DNA of 58,562 nucleotides, taken from assembly GCA_903897715.1 (NCBI GenBank), contig CAIUCS010000034.1:1-58562 (forward strand), read 5' to 3'. The DNA comes from an uncultured Synechococcales cyanobacterium (GTDB taxonomy: Bacteria > Cyanobacteriota > Cyanobacteriia > CAIUCS01). The notes under the pieces are model-generated. The model made no database searches, was not told the DNA's origin, and was given only the letters and a program-made list of their open reading frames with translations. The position numbers were made by a program, and so were the translations under genes. Shown here piece after piece: positions 10,994-27,178 of the stretch (positions are counted from its first letter, which is position 1; each line of letters opens with the position of its first letter).

Positions 10994-11788
10994 TTACGAC
11001 AATGGACTGAGACTTTCCCGTGTGGTTATGAGTGTTACTGGGTGCATAGTTTCCAGTTGTGCGGCGGGATGGCTGAGTAGGCGCGATCGCATCCCATCGC
11101 TGAGTCCCTGAACCAGGGTGAAATCTGCTCCAGCAATACTTTCAAATTGCTCAAACTCAACCCCTGTTAGATCTGCTGCTCGCAAATCGGCTCCCGCTAA
11201 ATTTGCCCCATTCAAGCGCGCGCTGCGTAAAAAAACGCCCGTCAATATGGCTGTGCGTAAGTCTGCCTGCACTAGGCGTGCCCCTCGCAGATTTGCGCCC
11301 GTCAAATCCGCACCGCTCAGGTATGCCCCCAACAAATTGATCTCTTGTAAATCGGCATGACGTAGATTTGCGGTGTTCAAGGGTGCCCCATTCAGATTCG
11401 CCCCTGGACCGATCGCCCCAGAAGATTTGTAGGCAAAGACTTCTGGAAAAATCGTTAGGCTATCGTACCGCGCCCATTGCAGTTGGGTGCTGGTCAAATT
11501 TGCACCGCTCAGATCGGCTCCAGTCAGATCAGCGCGATATAAACAGGCTCCGGTTAGATTGGCTTGTTGCAATAGGGCTTGATGTAAATTGGCTCCTCGC
11601 AAATCCGCCGCTTGTAAATCTGCCTGACTCAGGTTGGCTCGACTCAGATTGGCTCGCAGCAACGTCGCCCTGTTAAATGTAGCGCTTTGCAGATCTAGAC
11701 CGCTGAGATTGAACTGGTACAAATCTGACTGGCTTAACGACAGTCCTGCTTTGAGTCGAGTTAAAATGTCTTGAGGGGTTTTCAGCAT
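10994..11788 (-). CDS. Pentapeptide-repeat protein
   Basis: A 264-residue protein made of A(D/N)LXX pentapeptide repeats (LRANLSRANLSQADLQAADL and on to about residue 220), predicted to fold as a right-handed beta helix. The repeat runs are interrupted near residues 110-130 by a non-repeat segment (YDSLTIFPEVFAYKSS). There is no signal peptide, so it is probably cytoplasmic. These proteins are abundant in cyanobacteria and mostly of unknown role. It is convergent with the lyase remnant. Confidence 0.88.
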   Translation of the reverse strand: MLKTPQDILTRLKAGLSLSQSDLYQFNLSGLDLQSATFNRATLLRANLSRANLSQADLQAADLRGANLHQALLQQANLTGACLYRADLTGADLSGANLTSTQLQWARYDSLTIFPEVFAYKSSGAIGPGANLNGAPLNTANLRHADLQEINLLGAYLSGADLTGANLRGARLVQADLRTAILTGVFLRSARLNGANLAGADLRAADLTGVEFEQFESIAGADFTLVQGLSDGMRSRLLSHPAAQLETMHPVTLITTRESLSPLS

Positions 11789-11860
11789 TTCTCAATGGCG
11801 TGAAGCACTAAAGTTACAGTATATTCATTATGCACAGATATTGCATTGTCTCTGGAACTC

Positions 11861-12543
11861 ATGACGACACTCACCGAATTCCCACCTCAATTAATTGAAT
11901 ATCCTGAAGCAGATGGTTTACCAATGGCAGAAAGCGACCAAACTCGTGACTACCTAGTGTACGCAACGAAGGTACTCTCTGCCTTTTTTGGGCAACGACT
12001 GGATGTTTACCATCGGGCAATCTCTTCATTTACTATGAACAGGGAAACCCCGAGGCGGTTGTGGCTCCCGATGTATTTGTTGTGTTTGGGGTGGAAAATC
12101 GCCAGCGTCGCATTTATACGGTGTGGGAAGAGGGCGATCGCCCTCCTAATTTTGTCTTAGAAATCACCTCGAAAACGACCCTGAGCAAGGATCAGGGGGC
12201 AAAAAAAGGAATTTATGCCTTTCTCGGCGTAGAAGAGTATTATCAGTATGACCCAACTGGAGACTATCTCACCCCGACTTTACAGGGTTTGCGTTTAGTG
12301 GATGGAAACTATCTGACGGTGCCCACCAGCACCCTGTCAGATGGCACGATGGTGTTGCCCAGTGCTGTTTTGAGTTTAGAGTTGCATCTGAAAGGACAGG
12401 TGATGCGGTTTTATAACCCTGCTACCCAACAATATTTACTGACCCATGAAGAAGAGACAGCAGCTCGGCAAACCGCTGAAGAACGGGCACAAAGGCTTGC
12501 AGCGAAACTGCGAGAACTGAATATTGATCCGGATGCGGTTTGA
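11861..12543 (+). pseudogene. Uma2-family (DUF820) nuclease-fold protein, frameshifted
   Basis: The opening frame runs from ATG 11861 (MTTLTEFPPQLIEYPEADGL). It shifts at about 12012-12018, where one base appears to be missing, since the expected GNLFIYYEQGNPEAVVAPDV is encoded in the next frame. That frame continues through PDVFVVFGVENR and FVLEITSKTT (PD-(D/E)XK-like acidic residues) to the TGA at 12543. The tail is a short coiled coil (EEETAARQTAEERAQRLAAK). Uma2 proteins are very common in cyanobacteria and poorly understood. A single-base sequencing error is an alternative to true inactivation. Confidence 0.75.
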
Positions 12544-17381: not shown

Positions 17382-17591
17382 ATGACTGACCAACTTTCTT
17401 CCTTGATTCAAGCGGTAGAAGACGCGGATTCTTCCAGTCTTTTACTGGAAGCAGTACAGAATCTGGCTGCGGCTCGTTTGGAAGGAGCCATCCCCGTCTT
17501 AATTGCGGCTCTCAGCTACAACAATCCGGGGGCGGCAGTCTCAGCAGTAGATGGACTCATTCAATTGGGTGAACCTGCTGTGTCTCCACTG
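17382..17591 (+). pseudogene. cpcF: CpcF lyase subunit, 5' part only
   Basis: The first 70 codons match CpcF: SLLLEAVQNLAAARLEGAIP, then VLIAALSYNNPGAAVSAVDG and LIQLGEPAVSPL. CpcF normally continues with more HEAT repeats (an S/DYNYGARA-type block, then SVRRAAA...) to about 200-215 residues. Here, after residue 70, the frame passes without a stop into TnpB-like sequence (QAKVGVSIQGRYIRIPGLGK) and ends at 17753, giving a 123-residue chimera. I could not find the missing CpcF repeats in any frame downstream. The lyase partner is presumably inactive unless a second copy exists. Confidence 0.8.
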
Positions 17592-18160
17592 ACTCTGGCG
17601 ACCTCTCAAGCGAAAGTAGGAGTTTCGATTCAGGGTCGCTATATTCGGATTCCAGGGTTAGGAAAACTACTGGTGAAAGGGTTGGATACTCGCCTGCCCA
17701 AAGGTGTTCGGACTGCGACCCTAAGCATTTGTAAGGTTGCATCTGGAGACTAACTGCAACTTGGTGTGGAATTACCAGAAGTGCTATTGCCAGATTCCGA
17801 CCTTACCTGCGGTGTTGATGTGGGGGTCGAGTATCTCTATGCCACCGATCATGGTCGATTGGTGGAACCGCCCAGCTACTTTAAGCAATCGGCATATACC
17901 AGCTGGGACTGTCCCCGTTGTGGACACCGTAACCAACTTGATGTAAACCAATGGATATTTTGTTGTGAACAGTGTGGCTATCAATCTCAGCTAAAGCACG
18001 CGGCAGCAAACGTAATCCATCAGAGTGCAGTCTTCGCAAGAAGCTACCGGGGTTGTCACCGGGACGTAATGCCTATGGAGTCTCCTTTAGTGGAGACGAT
18101 GAAGCAGGAATCCCAACTCGAGAGGGTAGGAACTGTACCCACCAATGAACAGGTCGATAG
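17592..18160 (+). mobile_element. IS200/IS605-type tnpB remnant inserted in cpcF
   Basis: Three TnpB pieces follow in order. First is the strand segment before RuvC-I (VSIQGRYIRIPGLGKLLVKG, ending near 17750). Second, in another frame, is the RuvC-I block TCGVDVGVEYLYATDHG with EPPSYFKQSA (about 17800-17890). Third is the zinc ribbon CPRCGHRN...FCCEQCGYQ (17910-17975), followed in yet another frame by RNAYGVSFSGDDEAGIPT (about 18065-18120). RuvC-II and the start of the protein are missing, so it is a dead internal fragment. No tnpA (Y1 transposase) is seen. Confidence 0.8.
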
Positions 18161-18573
18161 ACCTGTCGATCACCTAATTTCTCAGACCTCTCCCACGGTT
18201 TTACCGTCAAGCCCTAAACCTCCTTCCAATTCCGACTCAACTGGGCAAAGCCCGAGACTGTGCCTCCAAAACCACCGTGAGGGAAGGCTTAGAGGGAAGA
18301 CGATCTCAACCGTACCTGATTGCTGGTTAATAAATATTTCGCCAATGACCATTGAGGCTCAGTTTAATGTGCTATGGGCGAGATATGTTCCACAATAATC
18401 CTGCAAATCCTTTACTACTATCCTGACCTAACTTCTCTATCGCTACTGTGAACATTAGAATGATAGATTAAAATTAGTCCATAGGCATTTGATCACCGTG
18501 CCCAACGATGGGCAAGATCTGCAAAGATCGAACATAGACCCAGATAAATTTACGTTTAGGAAACACAGCAGAT

Positions 18574-18813: not shown

Positions 18814-18847
18814 AGATTGAACCATAACGGCAAATAGGAAATTTGTG

Positions 18848-19759
18848 ATGAGTCCCTCGCTAAACTCCGATGCTCCGGTAGCTAATGATCCGGTCTTGCA
18901 AATTCAAGCCGAGAATGATGCTTTGATTCAGCAAGTCAATGAGCAAATTACCCTGGACAGCTTTGACTCAACGGATCAGCAAGTGCTTCAACGATTGGTG
19001 GAAGGGCTGGGAGATCCCCGTGGATTGGTGCGATTGCGCTTTGCTGAAACCTTAGGTGAAATTGGTGAACCAGCAACGCCCTTCCTAGAGGAAGCCCTGA
19101 CCCACCATGAGAATGTGGTCGTGCGGCGAGCCGCAGCTAAAACCCTGACGCTGATTGCAGACTCTAGCGCTGTGCCAACGTTGCTCCATTCGTTCCTCAA
19201 TGATGAAGATACAGTCGTCAGAAGTTCATCGGCTGGCGCCCTGGCAAGAACTGGCGAAGCGGCTGTCCCGGCGTTGCTGGATATTCTGGCATCGACGGAT
19301 CAGCCTGAGGACATTAAAGGTCATGCTGCGTGGGCACTGGCTTTTATTGGCTCGGAAGCGGCTGATTATTTGTATCAGGCTTTGAATAATGCATCACTGG
19401 ATGTGCGTTGTGCCGTCATTGGGGCATTAGGGCATGTGGCACAGGAGCAGTCCGATGAAAAGTCTTGCAATCTTCTGGTGGTTGCCCTCACCGATCTGGA
19501 ACCCTTAATCCGGACTGAGGCGGCAGCCGCCTTGGCGCAGGTGAATTATCCACCGGCAGTGCCGCATTTGATTTTGGCTGTTCAAGATGCCGACTTAGAT
19601 GTGAGAAAAGCCGCCATTAATGCCCTCGGCAAAATTGGCGATCGCTCAGCACTGAAATCACTGCAAGCCCTACTCAACGATGAAGAGAATGTGATCCGGG
19701 TGCTGGCTAAGTTGGCGATCGCTCACATTGAGCGCCAATCTGAAGCTGATGATTGGTAG
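18848..19759 (+). CDS. cpeF: HEAT-repeat bilin lyase, CpeF-like
   Basis: A protein of about 303 residues with at least six PBS-lyase HEAT repeats after a 40-residue N-terminal arm: GLVRLRFAETLGEIGEPATP, VVVRRAAAKTLTLIADSSA, DIKGHAAWALAFIG, DVRCAVIGALGHVA, DVRKAAINALGKIG. Length and layout fit CpeF/MpeV-type E/F-clan lyases. CpeF attaches the doubly linked PEB to beta-PE Cys48/59, and cpeB in this window has both cysteines. The start at ATG 18848 has AGGAAA upstream. The exact specificity cannot be read from sequence alone; another E/F lyase or chaperone is possible. Confidence 0.6.
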   Translation: MSPSLNSDAPVANDPVLQIQAENDALIQQVNEQITLDSFDSTDQQVLQRLVEGLGDPRGLVRLRFAETLGEIGEPATPFLEEALTHHENVVVRRAAAKTLTLIADSSAVPTLLHSFLNDEDTVVRSSSAGALARTGEAAVPALLDILASTDQPEDIKGHAAWALAFIGSEAADYLYQALNNASLDVRCAVIGALGHVAQEQSDEKSCNLLVVALTDLEPLIRTEAAAALAQVNYPPAVPHLILAVQDADLDVRKAAINALGKIGDRSALKSLQALLNDEENVIRVLAKLAIAHIERQSEADDW

Positions 19760-19844: not shown

Positions 19845-21116
19845 CTACCAAGGTAAAAGATGAGCGTTGGAGATTCCTTTAATTCGACATCCAACGCCGC
19901 CCAGTTCTTGTAAGCTTTTTTGCGCAGCTGCGATTGGACTAAAGATTACGTCTGTCACAATTTTCCACTCTTTCACCATCAAAGCCGCAAATTGCTCCTC
20001 TTGCTCTAGGGGTCCACCATTGGTGATGTAGTAGTTCAGTCCATTTTTCCCCGTTACAAACTCACCATTAAAGAAGTTAAACGTAACGCTATCTTCTAAC
20101 TTCTTGCGGATTACTTTTATCCCTGCTGCTTGTAAATCCCTTGCAGCTTCTTCTTCTAATGCAAGTTGTAACGTCAGCTTCGCGGCTGCGGTTTTAGTCG
20201 TCAGGCAAGGAACCGCCTCTGCCATTTCTATGGCATCTTTGCAGGCGATACTGCTGTTGTTCAGCACCACTACACCATGACCGATAAACAGGATCGCCAG
20301 ATCCAAATGAAATTGACCGGGCTGCTCTACACAGATGATTTGGTCGATCGTATCCAGCCCGAAATCTTCACAAATAATTTCTCGCGCCTGTTCTCTTGTG
20401 AACTGATAAATACGGGCTGTCGCATCGATCGCATCTTTGCCGATCAGGATGACAGGTTTTCCTGCGGCATCCTCTCCGGCAATCATATTCCCTCCTTCGA
20501 TATAGGCTCGAATGTGCCCAACGCCATGCTGCTTTACTACAGCAAAAGATTCCACTACGCCACCTATTTCACTGGCGTTGACTCTAACCCCTAGCGGAAT
20601 CCACAAATGATCATCCTGGAGTGCGGCTTCTAAAATTTCTGATGAGACCTTGTCTTGCCAGCGGGATCGTCTGCCTGACTTCATCGCCCATTCTAAAAGC
20701 TGGCTATCAAAGGATTTGAGTACAGCAATCTTGCCATTCTCCAGATATTCCAGACCGTCCTCTGCCCACTTCGTGATCGGCTGAGAACTCTCAATGACAC
20801 GGTACATAGCCTCCCGACAGTGGTCTTGACTCAATTCTTGTTCGACATCGCTTCGGCTATCCCGATCGGTCAAAATGTTTAATTGCAAGCCTAGCGCTCT
20901 GACGACAGTTGCAAAGAATCGCAAATGCGCCCTTTCTGCCTCAGTTTGCCTTTCTGTATATCCCCGAACGTAATTCATGTGAAGAATCTGCGTGTTGCCG
21001 CTGGGAGTTTTCTTGTGTGGCATTGCCCCTCCCGTATCGAAAGGTGGCAGCAATGGCTGAGAATCGGTTGTCAGCCGTTCCATACTGGTGGGTTGGGTCT
21101 GATGATTCACTTCCAC
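19845..21116 (-). CDS. Pentein-fold guanidino-group enzyme (deiminase/amidinotransferase-like)
   Basis: A 423-residue protein with the full set of catalytic landmarks of the guanidino-modifying (pentein) superfamily: Glu207 in YIEGGNMIAG, the His270-Leu-Asp272 pair in FHLDLAILFIGHG, and a nucleophile Cys410 in LGGVGCRIKGISNAHLLPW. Members include arginine deiminase, agmatine deiminase, amidinotransferases and protein-arginine deiminases. About 100 residues precede the fold's clear motifs. The gene starts 12 bases after the CpcM-like gene and is last in the cpeYZ strand series, so it is probably co-expressed with PE maturation genes. Its substrate is unknown. Free arginine or agmatine is the conservative guess; arginine residues of phycobiliproteins are the bolder one. 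Confidence 0.7.
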   Translation of the reverse strand: MEVNHQTQPTSMERLTTDSQPLLPPFDTGGAMPHKKTPSGNTQILHMNYVRGYTERQTEAERAHLRFFATVVRALGLQLNILTDRDSRSDVEQELSQDHCREAMYRVIESSQPITKWAEDGLEYLENGKIAVLKSFDSQLLEWAMKSGRRSRWQDKVSSEILEAALQDDHLWIPLGVRVNASEIGGVVESFAVVKQHGVGHIRAYIEGGNMIAGEDAAGKPVILIGKDAIDATARIYQFTREQAREIICEDFGLDTIDQIICVEQPGQFHLDLAILFIGHGVVVLNNSSIACKDAIEMAEAVPCLTTKTAAAKLTLQLALEEEAARDLQAAGIKVIRKKLEDSVTFNFFNGEFVTGKNGLNYYITNGGPLEQEEQFAALMVKEWKIVTDVIFSPIAAAQKSLQELGGVGCRIKGISNAHLLPW

Positions 21117-21128
21117 TTTGCGGCATTC

Positions 21129-22331
21129 TCAGTCAGTAGGGCTTAATAGAATAATTTGTTGATGTTGCAGCGATCGCACATCCGCCAAGCTGGCTTCTGT
21201 ACTCTGCAAAATCTGCTCCACAGTTTTCTGCGCCGCAGGATTTCCAGCACAACCTTTTAGGAATTGCCACTTTGAGTCACTGAGGCGAACGATTTGATAG
21301 TCAAAATTGAGAAACTGTTGACTCTCTTGCCATCCTTGAATACAAGGACTTGGTTCCGGTGTGGCGGCGAGCAGCAGGGTATCTGACGACCAATCCTGTC
21401 GGACAATGGGGCTGCGTCCCAGGAAAAACTCATAGTGGGTAATTGCTTGCGGATCCAGCAGTTCAATCAGGCGATAGTGCTGGCGATCGCTCAACTGCTT
21501 GGCACGCTCCATCAATTCTGGTGCTTGCCCCATTAATCGATCTAACGTCCAAATCTGTGGATTAGAAAAACCAATAAATTCCAACCCCGACGCATCAATC
21601 AATTCAAACACGGTCTTGATGTTGTAATCAATCTCTTGCGGATGCACGTACATATCGGCAAAGTAAGCATCGCGATGATTTTCCCAAGACCACCGTTCCT
21701 CTTCCCGTTTTCGTAGACGGTTGTCTTCAGGCAACGCTGCAAATAGTTGTCGCCCAATGGCAACACCATCGGTATAATCACCTCGTTGTTCGCCTTGTAA
21801 TAGGGCGATCGCCTCCTGCATCAACTGAATCTCCCAGCGACCCAACTCGCCATAGACAAAAATATGGAGCAGTCCCCCTGGTGCCAGTTTTTTAGCCAAA
21901 GCCTGAATGCCGCCAATCGGATCGGGAGTATGGTGCAACACTCCCACGCAGTTAATCAGATCAAACTCACCTGGTAGTTGATCAACATCAAACAAACTGA
22001 GGTGATGAAACTCTACTCCCTTTGCCCCTGACTTCTGGCACCGCTCCTTTGCTACCGCCAACGCGACCGCACTCAGATCAATTCCCATTACTGTTGCATC
22101 CGGATTCAAATGCACCAGATATTCCGTTCCAACTCCTGTGCCACAGCCCGCATCCAGAATCCGAGCGTTCTGCCGTGCTGGTTTTTGACCGGTGCAAAAG
22201 TTGTAGGCACTTAGCCAATGCCAGCGCCAGTTATAACCTGGAGGGGGTTCGTCCAGCATCGGTTCGGGTGGAAAGGGATAGGTGTTGTAGAGCTGGGCAA
22301 CGGCGGCATTAATAGACTGGGAATCTGACAT
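21129..22331 (-). CDS. cpcM: SAM-dependent methyltransferase, probable phycobiliprotein Asn methylase CpcM
   Basis: A 400-residue class I methyltransferase. The N-terminus AAVAQLYNTYPFPPEPML leads into the SAM site ILDAGCGTGVGTEYLVHLNP (about residues 57-77), acidic motif II in VMGIDLSAVAL, and VGVLHHTPDPIGGIQALAK. The size, the NTYPFP opening and the position next to cpeZ fit CpcM, which methylates Asn72 of phycobiliprotein beta subunits. The target Asn is present in both cpcB (Asn72) and cpeB (Asn70 by this numbering). It starts 11 bases after cpeZ. The fold is certain; CpcM identity is inferred from recalled features and context. Confidence 0.68.
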   Translation of the reverse strand: MSDSQSINAAVAQLYNTYPFPPEPMLDEPPPGYNWRWHWLSAYNFCTGQKPARQNARILDAGCGTGVGTEYLVHLNPDATVMGIDLSAVALAVAKERCQKSGAKGVEFHHLSLFDVDQLPGEFDLINCVGVLHHTPDPIGGIQALAKKLAPGGLLHIFVYGELGRWEIQLMQEAIALLQGEQRGDYTDGVAIGRQLFAALPEDNRLRKREEERWSWENHRDAYFADMYVHPQEIDYNIKTVFELIDASGLEFIGFSNPQIWTLDRLMGQAPELMERAKQLSDRQHYRLIELLDPQAITHYEFFLGRSPIVRQDWSSDTLLLAATPEPSPCIQGWQESQQFLNFDYQIVRLSDSKWQFLKGCAGNPAAQKTVEQILQSTEASLADVRSLQHQQIILLSPTD

Positions 22332-22342
22332 AATCGCTAAGG

Positions 22343-22954
22343 CTATTGGGGCGGCTGGTTCTTGATCAATAGTTCCAGGCGAGATAGGGCGCTAACTGTT
22401 GCTTCGCGCACATAGGAGTCAGTGGATTCATCCTGGCTCAAAGCCTTCAATACTTCAACTCCCCGCTCATCGCCGATCGACCCCAAAGCATTGACAATCG
22501 AAATTGCCAGAGCCGGATTGTCTGTGGCTTGCAATGCTTTAATCAAAGCATCGACAACGGAAGTGCCAATCTCTCCCATGGCCATCACTGCGGCAATATG
22601 GACAACTGGATTGGGGTCATGCAGTGCTGTTGACAAGCCTTGCACCCCCTCCGCAGGAAACGGATCATCCGGATAATTAATCGCAACCTGTGCTAGGGCT
22701 TTAGCCGCGCTCCCGCGAACCGTCACATTGTCACTATTGAGCAACGCCTCGACCAGGGGTGGCACGGCATCAAACCCGATCGCTCCTAAGGCTTTCACCG
22801 CCGCCCGTCGATAGGTAGTATCTTCCTCATCCAAAATGCTCATCAGGCGCGGAATCGTGGTTTCGTCTGGGTTTTCTGCCAGTTCCCACATTGCCTGGTC
22901 GCGGAGGTTGGGATTAGGATGCTTCAGTCGTTGAAAAAGTTCATCAGTTGACAT
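22343..22954 (-). CDS. cpeZ: Phycoerythrin lyase chaperone CpeZ (HEAT repeat)
   Basis: A 203-residue HEAT protein opening LFQRLKHPNPNLRDQAMWEL, with TTYRRAAVKALGAIGFDAVP, VTVRGSAAKALAQVAINYPD, PVVHIAAVMAMGEIG and YVREATVSALSRLE. These are the repeats expected of CpeZ, the E/F-clan factor that stabilises PE subunits and helps CpeY load PEB on alpha-PE Cys82. Length is normal. It lies 102 bases after cpeY and 11 before the methyltransferase, all minus strand. Confidence 0.88.
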   Translation of the reverse strand: MSTDELFQRLKHPNPNLRDQAMWELAENPDETTIPRLMSILDEEDTTYRRAAVKALGAIGFDAVPPLVEALLNSDNVTVRGSAAKALAQVAINYPDDPFPAEGVQGLSTALHDPNPVVHIAAVMAMGEIGTSVVDALIKALQATDNPALAISIVNALGSIGDERGVEVLKALSQDESTDSYVREATVSALSRLELLIKNQPPQ

Positions 22955-23056: not shown

Positions 23057-24337
23057 TCAATGAACAGTCACCAGTTTTGTATTCGCCTTTTCTCGGATTA
23101 ACCAATCATCGTCATGGGTGATTTTGGCATAACCACCGATGTCGCCAAAGGTTTCCAACGCCATCAACGCGGCATATTTCAGATCCCAGATTTTGCTATC
23201 CAAACAAGCGTGTAGGTGGGGAATCGCACGTGGATCTCCCAGTTCTGCTAGGGCGATCGCCGCCGCTGCCCGCGATTTCTGAAACTGCGGTTGTTTGTTA
23301 TACAGGGACTCAATCAACAGATCATAGGCTGGAACATGTTTGAGCCAACCAAATAGCTTCATCACATGAAAGTGTGCCCCATAGTCATTTTTGCCTTCTT
23401 CAGCGTAGGTTGCAAATAGGGCATCTGGCGCGGCTTCAGCATGATGCTCCAGAATTGTCTTGGTTGCTAAATAGCAGCGTCCAAAGTCAGTCTCATACAA
23501 TTCCTGAATCAGAAAGGGTAAGGTAGGAGGCTGATCATAGGTATGAACTAAGTCCAGATCCCCGGGATGATCGCGGAGGGATTGTTCCAAGTAGGGTTGA
23601 ATGGCGGTAAAGGGAATGGCTCCAACAGGAACTCCAGACTCAGCCAACATCCGAATTCCACGCAGGCGGAACACCAGCGAGACAGGACATCTGGCAATCT
23701 GGGGAATGGCATCGTAGTACTGGGAATCAATCAAATCCTGAATGGATAAGCGTCGAGCCAGCACATTCGAGTTTTGTAACATCCCCACCACTTTGTCCAT
23801 CTGGGAATAATCCCTGGTAAAGCGGCAAACAGTTGTAATGGCAGCGCTTGCGGTTGGCAAGTCAGCATTATCCGTAAAACGGCGAATGCGTTCTAGAGCG
23901 GGCTGATAATGTAACTTTGCCAGGGTGTGGATAATCACCCGATAGGTTTGCCCTGGCTTGTGGAGTAATTGAGCCACATCTTCCAAAATGACTGGGTCGT
24001 GGGTGCCAATCTCACCGATGGCCCAGACCGCATTTTCGACGGTGTACCTGTCGTCATCGCTCAGACACGAGTGGATCACCGGCAAAGCTTGCACTGCTTC
24101 TAATCGCCCCAGGGTTTCCACCGACTTGCGCCGCACAATCCGGTTCTCCATAGCTGGATCGGTTTGCTGGATCGCTCGTATCAGGGCAGCGATCGCCTGC
24201 TCCGTCGGGAAATTGACCAAATGGGAAGCCGCGATATAACGCGAATCGTCCTCGCTGATCTGATCTTGAGGGGTATCTAAAAGGGCGATCGCCTGATCTT
24301 CCGTGAGATTGAAAAGATTAAAAAAACGTTTATCCAT
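23057..24337 (-). CDS. cpeY: Phycoerythrin alpha-subunit lyase CpeY (HEAT repeat)
   Basis: A 426-residue E/F-clan lyase opening MDKRFFNLFNLTEDQAIALL. Repeat blocks include ENRIVRRKSVETLGRLEAVQ, YTVENAVWAIGEIGTHDPV, VIIHTLAKLHYQPALERIRR and KSRAAAAIALAELGDPRAIP. CpeY attaches PEB to alpha-PE Cys82, assisted by CpeZ, and both target and helper are adjacent (cpeA upstream, cpeZ downstream). Length matches the family. A 274-base gap separates it from cpeA, enough for attenuation between the abundant cpeBA mRNA and the scarce lyase mRNA. Confidence 0.92.
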   Translation of the reverse strand: MDKRFFNLFNLTEDQAIALLDTPQDQISEDDSRYIAASHLVNFPTEQAIAALIRAIQQTDPAMENRIVRRKSVETLGRLEAVQALPVIHSCLSDDDRYTVENAVWAIGEIGTHDPVILEDVAQLLHKPGQTYRVIIHTLAKLHYQPALERIRRFTDNADLPTASAAITTVCRFTRDYSQMDKVVGMLQNSNVLARRLSIQDLIDSQYYDAIPQIARCPVSLVFRLRGIRMLAESGVPVGAIPFTAIQPYLEQSLRDHPGDLDLVHTYDQPPTLPFLIQELYETDFGRCYLATKTILEHHAEAAPDALFATYAEEGKNDYGAHFHVMKLFGWLKHVPAYDLLIESLYNKQPQFQKSRAAAAIALAELGDPRAIPHLHACLDSKIWDLKYAALMALETFGDIGGYAKITHDDDWLIREKANTKLVTVH

Positions 24338-24611: not shown

Positions 24612-25109
<498 letters not shown>

Positions 25110-25185: not shown

Positions 25186-25818
<633 letters not shown>

Positions 25819-26250: not shown

Positions 26251-27178
26251 ACGTCAGTTATGGATAAGCCTGGGGGAGCAAGTTTGAGTCAAGCGCAATC
26301 GAGGGTTTTTCGGTTGGTGGCAGTAGGCAAGTAATCCCCCCGACCAGGTTGACCAGAAAGTTGACCGGGGAGGGATGCCAGGAGTGCTCGATGGGAGAGA
26401 TGTTTTTCAACTGGGCAATGATGGTTTCGATGATGGATCCCTTTCGCAATAGCAAGGGATTCTTCATAGTGCGCCGCAGTTTGGTGATGAGTTGTACTCC
26501 AGTCTGCTGCCAGAGTTGTTTTGCTAACTTTTGCGAAACATAGCCTTTGTCGGCGAAGACCTTGCCGAAGATCTGCTGCCATAGCCTGGGCACAGGAGTT
26601 CGGTCATCGGTGTTACCAGGAGTCAGGGTAAAGTTGACCAATTCCCCCTGGTCATTGACGACCAAATGGAGTGTGAAGCCGAAGAACCAGTCCACTGATG
26701 TCTGCCCCGCTCAGTTAACAAATCAAACACTTTGTGCTGATTGATGGGGTGATTGTGGCACAAGACTGGTCGAGTCCATGAAGCTAATCCCACTGCCCAA
26801 AGCAGGAGCGCAGGTAAGCACACAACGGCATAACACTGAAGGCACCAACTGATAAAGCGGGGATAGTTCACCAAATGGGGGAATGCCTTGTGCCAGTAGC
26901 GGCAACGTGTTTGGTGTAGTAGTCCTTGAACGTGGGGTAGCCCTGTTGATGAAAAGCAATCACAATCGTTATGATTTCCCTCAGGCAAAGTTATCGGCTC
27001 CGATTCTGGGTTTGCAGCCCGCTCTGCAAAAGTTGCGGTTGCCACAGGGGTTCAAAGCGTTGGCAGAAGTCATCGACTGAGCAGAAGAGGTCTTCTAAGC
27101 TAGACATAGGGGGGACTTGCTGAATGGTTTGTTTATTTCAGCCTACGGCTCCCGCCTTTTCTTATCCAGAACTCACGT
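26251..27178. mobile_element. IS982-type insertion sequence, decayed
   Basis: About 928 bases bounded by imperfect terminal inverted repeats: ACGTCAGTTATGGATAAG at 26251-26268 and its counterpart CTTATCCAGAACTCACGT at 27161-27178, 16 of 18 pairs matching. The interior is a single transposase gene in broken frames on the minus strand. I see no convincing target duplication. It stands at the boundary between the pigment island and the housekeeping region. Confidence 0.8.
26258..27107 (-). pseudogene. IS982-family DDE transposase, frameshifted with an in-frame stop
   Basis: Reading from ATG 27107: SSLEDLFCSVDDFCQRFEPL, an in-frame stop at about 26989 within NRSR-stop-LCLREI, then fragments in other frames (LREIITIVIAFHQQGYP; CHNHPINQHKVFD). 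Finally comes a long C-terminal frame 26695-26258 with DWFFGFTLHLVVNDQGELVN, FADKGYVSQKLAKQLW, QLITKLRRTMKNPLL and SIIETIIAQLKNISPIEHSW. These are the IS982 DDE motifs. At least two frameshifts and one stop make it inactive. Confidence 0.85.

Follow-up and report, generated by a model that had tools for sequence, protein, structure and literature searches.

Phycobilisome biogenesis is usually described as the work of lyases, chaperones, linkers, and one methyltransferase. The closest described guanidino enzymes belong to the pentein superfamily, namely agmatine deiminase and the Porphyromonas-type PPAD (PF04371), DDAH (PF19420), and the peptidylarginine deiminases of the PADI family (PF03068). 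Citrullination of proteins is known for the PADI family, and the peptidylarginine deiminases known from cyanobacteria are multi-domain PADI proteins (PMC8826395). Phycobiliproteins themselves are modified by CpcM, which is described as an asparagine methyltransferase of their beta subunits (PMC10070481). A search of openly available papers returned no report of citrulline in phycobiliproteins or of a pentein among phycobilisome genes.

The window, i.e., the whole stretch of DNA that was analyzed, measures 58.6 kb and is one of the 207 contigs of a 2.86 Mb cyanobacterial genome, the sole representative of its order among the genomes compared. It carries a phycoerythrin gene series on the minus strand, in the order cpeB-cpeA-cpeY-cpeZ-methyltransferase-pentein. 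The beta subunit CpeB (25186-25740; the frame is readable from 25818, with an ATG at 25740) and the alpha subunit CpeA (24612-25106) match solved phycoerythrin beta and alpha chains, respectively. CpeY, the phycoerythrobilin lyase (23057-24337), is certain from its sequence, as it scores 757.7 bits against NF058505, for which the cut-off is 600 bits. It is followed by a CpeZ-type HEAT-repeat protein (22343-22954), and homologous loci, together with phycoerythrin chains in the PDB, make the identities of CpeZ, CpeA, and CpeB clear. Next come a CpcM-like class I SAM methyltransferase (21129-22331) and a 423-residue pentein-fold protein of an unnamed family (19845-21116), two genes which the first-pass annotation had treated together as one interval (19845-22331). 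The gap from cpeZ to the methyltransferase measures 11 bases, and that from the methyltransferase to the pentein gene 12 bases. The latter opens with GTG, a plausible start since a close homologue in the carrier genome G165 begins with the identical MEVN. The next gene (18845-19759) lies on the plus strand and converges on the pentein gene, which therefore closes the series, as the first-pass annotation had it. This convergent gene encodes a HEAT-repeat protein of the E/F lyase type, probably CpeF, the doubly-linked bilin lyase, and it is retained next to cpe loci in carriers and non-carriers of the pentein alike. Upstream of cpeB, a remnant of a DDE transposase is present (26258-26695).

Searched with the pentein ORF and its relatives, the sequence databases (Pfam, NCBIfam, PHROGs, and PDB sequences) were uninformative; in Pfam, none of 12 family members had a match. 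Structure prediction was more informative. An AlphaFold model built with 12 relatives (pLDDT 73.9) matched 13 PDB chains at E <= 0.001, all of them penteins: twelve agmatine deiminase chains, followed by human DDAH-1. A second model, built with 13 relatives after trimming (pLDDT 70), was no better than the first, yet it gave the same fold match, with 11 PDB chains at E <= 0.001, all agmatine deiminases. The top matches to agmatine deiminases had E-values of 6e-8 to 5e-7, and DDAH came second (7ut0, E 2.6e-4). Model confidence is moderate, the matches reach modest TM-scores of 0.34-0.50, and both models have low confidence in the active-site loops. On these predicted structures, the assignment to the pentein fold is firm, and the structural details are less so. 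The fold had earlier been judged by eye, and both models now point to penteins alone.

The active-site residues fit this assignment. The first-pass annotation had proposed Glu207, His270-x-Asp272, and Cys410 as the catalytic set; the residues are as stated, and they are invariant in all 13 sequences, as is Asp120, which adds a fifth active-site candidate. The corresponding codons lie at 20757-20759 (D120), 20496-20498 (E207), 20307-20309 (H270), 20301-20303 (D272), and 19887-19889 (C410). The homologues are 53-75% identical to the query. The motifs W..D, EGG, H-x-D, and a C-terminal GG..C recall agmatine deiminase, and each residue's probable equivalent in that enzyme was mapped by motif order rather than by superposition. 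Judged by its sequence and the models, the protein is a member of the pentein superfamily that looks catalytically intact. By analogy with agmatine deiminase, Cys410 would attack the guanidinium carbon, His270 would serve as acid/base, and Asp120, Glu207, and Asp272 would hold the guanidinium group. The reaction would then be hydrolysis of a guanidino group, which, on an arginine side chain of phycoerythrin or of a linker, would yield citrulline. A binding or regulatory protein, e.g., an assembly factor that has kept the pentein fold and lost the chemistry, has some precedent, as several phycobilisome lyase-type proteins are chaperones, CpeZ among them (PMC7948978). The pentein also diverges faster than CpeY within genus g95. 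Nevertheless, the invariance of all five residues, including Cys410, makes such a loss of chemistry unlikely.

How far the family departs from the described enzymes differs from case to case. With the agmatine deiminase/PPAD family (PF04371), it shares the fold found by structure search and the succession of motifs (Asp, Glu-Gly-Gly, His-x-Asp, and C-terminal Gly-Gly...Cys). It is, however, only 11-15% identical to that family in fold alignments, has no match to the PF04371 profile, and is linked to phycoerythrin genes. A comparison by hhalign with cyanobacterial agmatine deiminases was not significant, both alignments being shallow (Neff ~2). DDAH shares the pentein fold and the Cys/His chemistry, but the pentein ORF is longer, and DDAH is only the second-best fold match; the DDAH profile (PF19420) matched neither the ORF nor anything else in the window's genome. 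The PADI family has the superfamily in common with the new protein, which is nonetheless of single-domain size, and PAD_M and PAD_C were not detected in the 12 members searched. The family is a real, conserved, and unnamed group tied to phycoerythrin, within the known pentein superfamily.

In an even sample of the cyanobacterial class, the family was found in 13 of 390 genomes. The carriers span six genera in four families, and eight of them come from one genus. A profile search of 65 genomes from the main family revealed no additional carriers, and, at the sensitivity used, plasmids, phages, and viral contigs contained no relative.

The occurrence of the family follows phycoerythrin. CpeY above the cut-off is present in 77 of the 390 genomes, i.e., in 9 of 13 carriers versus 68 of 377 others (Fisher p 1e-4, a test that exaggerates the association, as genomes are treated as independent and relatedness is uncorrected). 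CpeB at >= 86% identity was detected in 11 carriers. In the remaining two, G216 and G372, whose assemblies are fragmented, the pentein gene is located at a contig end next to a phycobilisome linker; in G216, even phycocyanin beta was not found. The family is therefore restricted to phycoerythrin-bearing genomes in the 11 of 13 carriers that can be judged. The gene is absent from most phycoerythrin producers, and phycoerythrin as such can therefore be made without the pentein.

The linkage is also physical. In nine genomes of 2.9-9.4 Mb, the pentein gene lies 1.2, 2.0, 3.3, 2.4, 2.6, 5.6, 4.7, 0.4, and 25.7 kb from the nearest cpe gene, i.e., within 0.4-5.6 kb in eight of them and at 25.7 kb in one. 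At least four local arrangements near cpe genes were observed. In G000 and G165, the pentein gene is the last of the cpeBAYZ-methyltransferase series. In genus g95, it stands head-to-head with a long phycobilisome linker that has three PF00427 domains. G329 has it between cpeZ and cpeY, and G286 next to linkers and a further phycobilisome subunit gene; in G003, it lies upstream of cpeB at a distance of 368 bases. Homologues scattered with no link to phycoerythrin genes were looked for; the neighborhood survey found the linkage in several lineages and gene orders instead. A gene of unrelated function could travel passively with phycoerythrin islands, and the patchy distribution, with eight of only 13 carriers in one genus, would suit such passive linkage. 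Hitch-hiking as one block does not account for the different arrangements, though, and this explanation appears quite improbable. Since the neighbors are kept despite rearrangements, a function shared with the cpe genes is well supported, and the evidence for a phycoerythrin-dedicated function is strong.

A closer tie to CpcM, as suggested in the first-pass annotation, did not hold up. The neighbor at 21129-22331 is a class I methyltransferase by sequence, and no curated CpcM model matched it. Of 60 cpe loci from genomes without the pentein, at least ten have a member of this methyltransferase family behind cpeZ. Among the 13 carriers, the best CpcM-like match is on a different contig or distant from the pentein gene in ten and directly adjoins it in two (G000 and G165). 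These two have two CpcM-like copies each, one within the cpe series and one elsewhere; in the window's genome, the second homologue is 64% identical to the gene at 21129-22331. G329 has a single CpcM-like gene, about 5.8 kb from the pentein. The specific association of the pentein with CpcM is hence weak. CpcM is an established modifier of phycobiliproteins, and a CpcM-like gene adjoins the pentein gene in G000 and G165; its fold and chemistry are unlike those of the pentein. This bears on the idea of a DDAH-like hydrolysis of a methylated or otherwise modified group on phycobiliproteins, carried out jointly with the neighboring methyltransferase. Such a partnership would be in line with DDAH being the second group by fold and with the CpcM-like gene lying directly upstream in those two genomes. 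The methyltransferase is nevertheless distant in most carriers and stands alone behind cpeZ in many non-carriers, and asparagine, the reported target of CpcM, is not a pentein substrate class; the partnership is therefore very improbable.

A small guanidino substrate is the other option to be weighed. The enzyme might act on arginine, agmatine, or a derivative, e.g., in nitrogen recycling during phycoerythrin synthesis or degradation, and be co-regulated with the pigment genes. By fold, the protein comes closest to agmatine deiminases, which are small-molecule enzymes, and no PF04371 agmatine deiminase was found elsewhere in the window's genome. The family is, however, confined to phycoerythrin genomes and repeatedly linked to cpe assembly genes rather than to arginine genes. 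Moreover, a true agmatine deiminase co-occurs with the pentein in three carriers (G168, G242, and G351). Orthology to agmatine or arginine deiminase was specifically looked for and, in view of this coexistence, orthology to agmatine deiminase was rejected. A small-molecule role is accordingly regarded as rather unlikely.

The gene tracks phycoerythrin and not arginine metabolism, and three carriers also possess a true agmatine deiminase; the likeliest substrate is therefore an arginine of phycoerythrin or of a linker. The small-molecule nature of the closest folds was counted against this choice. We infer catalysis in vivo, deiminase activity, and a protein substrate. Modification of arginine is a plausible hypothesis overall. 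That the protein is an active pentein enzyme for phycoerythrin biogenesis, most likely deiminating arginine in phycoerythrin or its linkers, is the preferred reading, with a probability somewhat short of even. The narrower version, a phycoerythrin-dedicated protein arginine deiminase that would convert a defined arginine of phycoerythrin or of a rod linker to citrulline during antenna assembly, is possible and is put forward tentatively.

The presence of a conserved, catalytically intact-looking enzyme of another chemical class, which has followed the phycoerythrin genes through rearrangements, suggests that a step is missing from the usual list of phycobilisome biogenesis. If citrullination of phycoerythrin or a linker proved true, a light-harvesting complex would carry a dedicated modification of arginine.

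Candidate targets and partners were sought by comparing carriers with non-carriers. In CpeA and CpeZ, no arginine separates the two groups. In CpeB, only one does, R148, located in the loop preceding the last bilin cysteine; it is present in 9 of 10 copies from carriers and in 17 of 50 from non-carriers (p 0.0015, uncorrected for several hundred columns). Being common among non-carriers, it may serve as a lead only for the target site. The long linker adjoining the pentein gene in one genus ends in a C-terminal LNKWR helix; the linker at L029:10029-12368 has three PF00427 domains, an LNKWR-type helix, and no CpcD domain. Linkers with a helix of this type occur in 62 of 390 genomes, mostly without the pentein, and the subtype was consequently rejected as a specific partner. 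An LNKWR-type linker is also encoded on contig C37 of the window's genome.

Two further features of the window were noted. At 17382-18398, cpcF is broken off after about 70 codons and is followed by a TnpB-like zinc-ribbon remnant; the remainder of cpcF was not found within the window. At 11729-12540, a frame-broken version of a 270-residue ORF is present, of which G165 carries the intact form.
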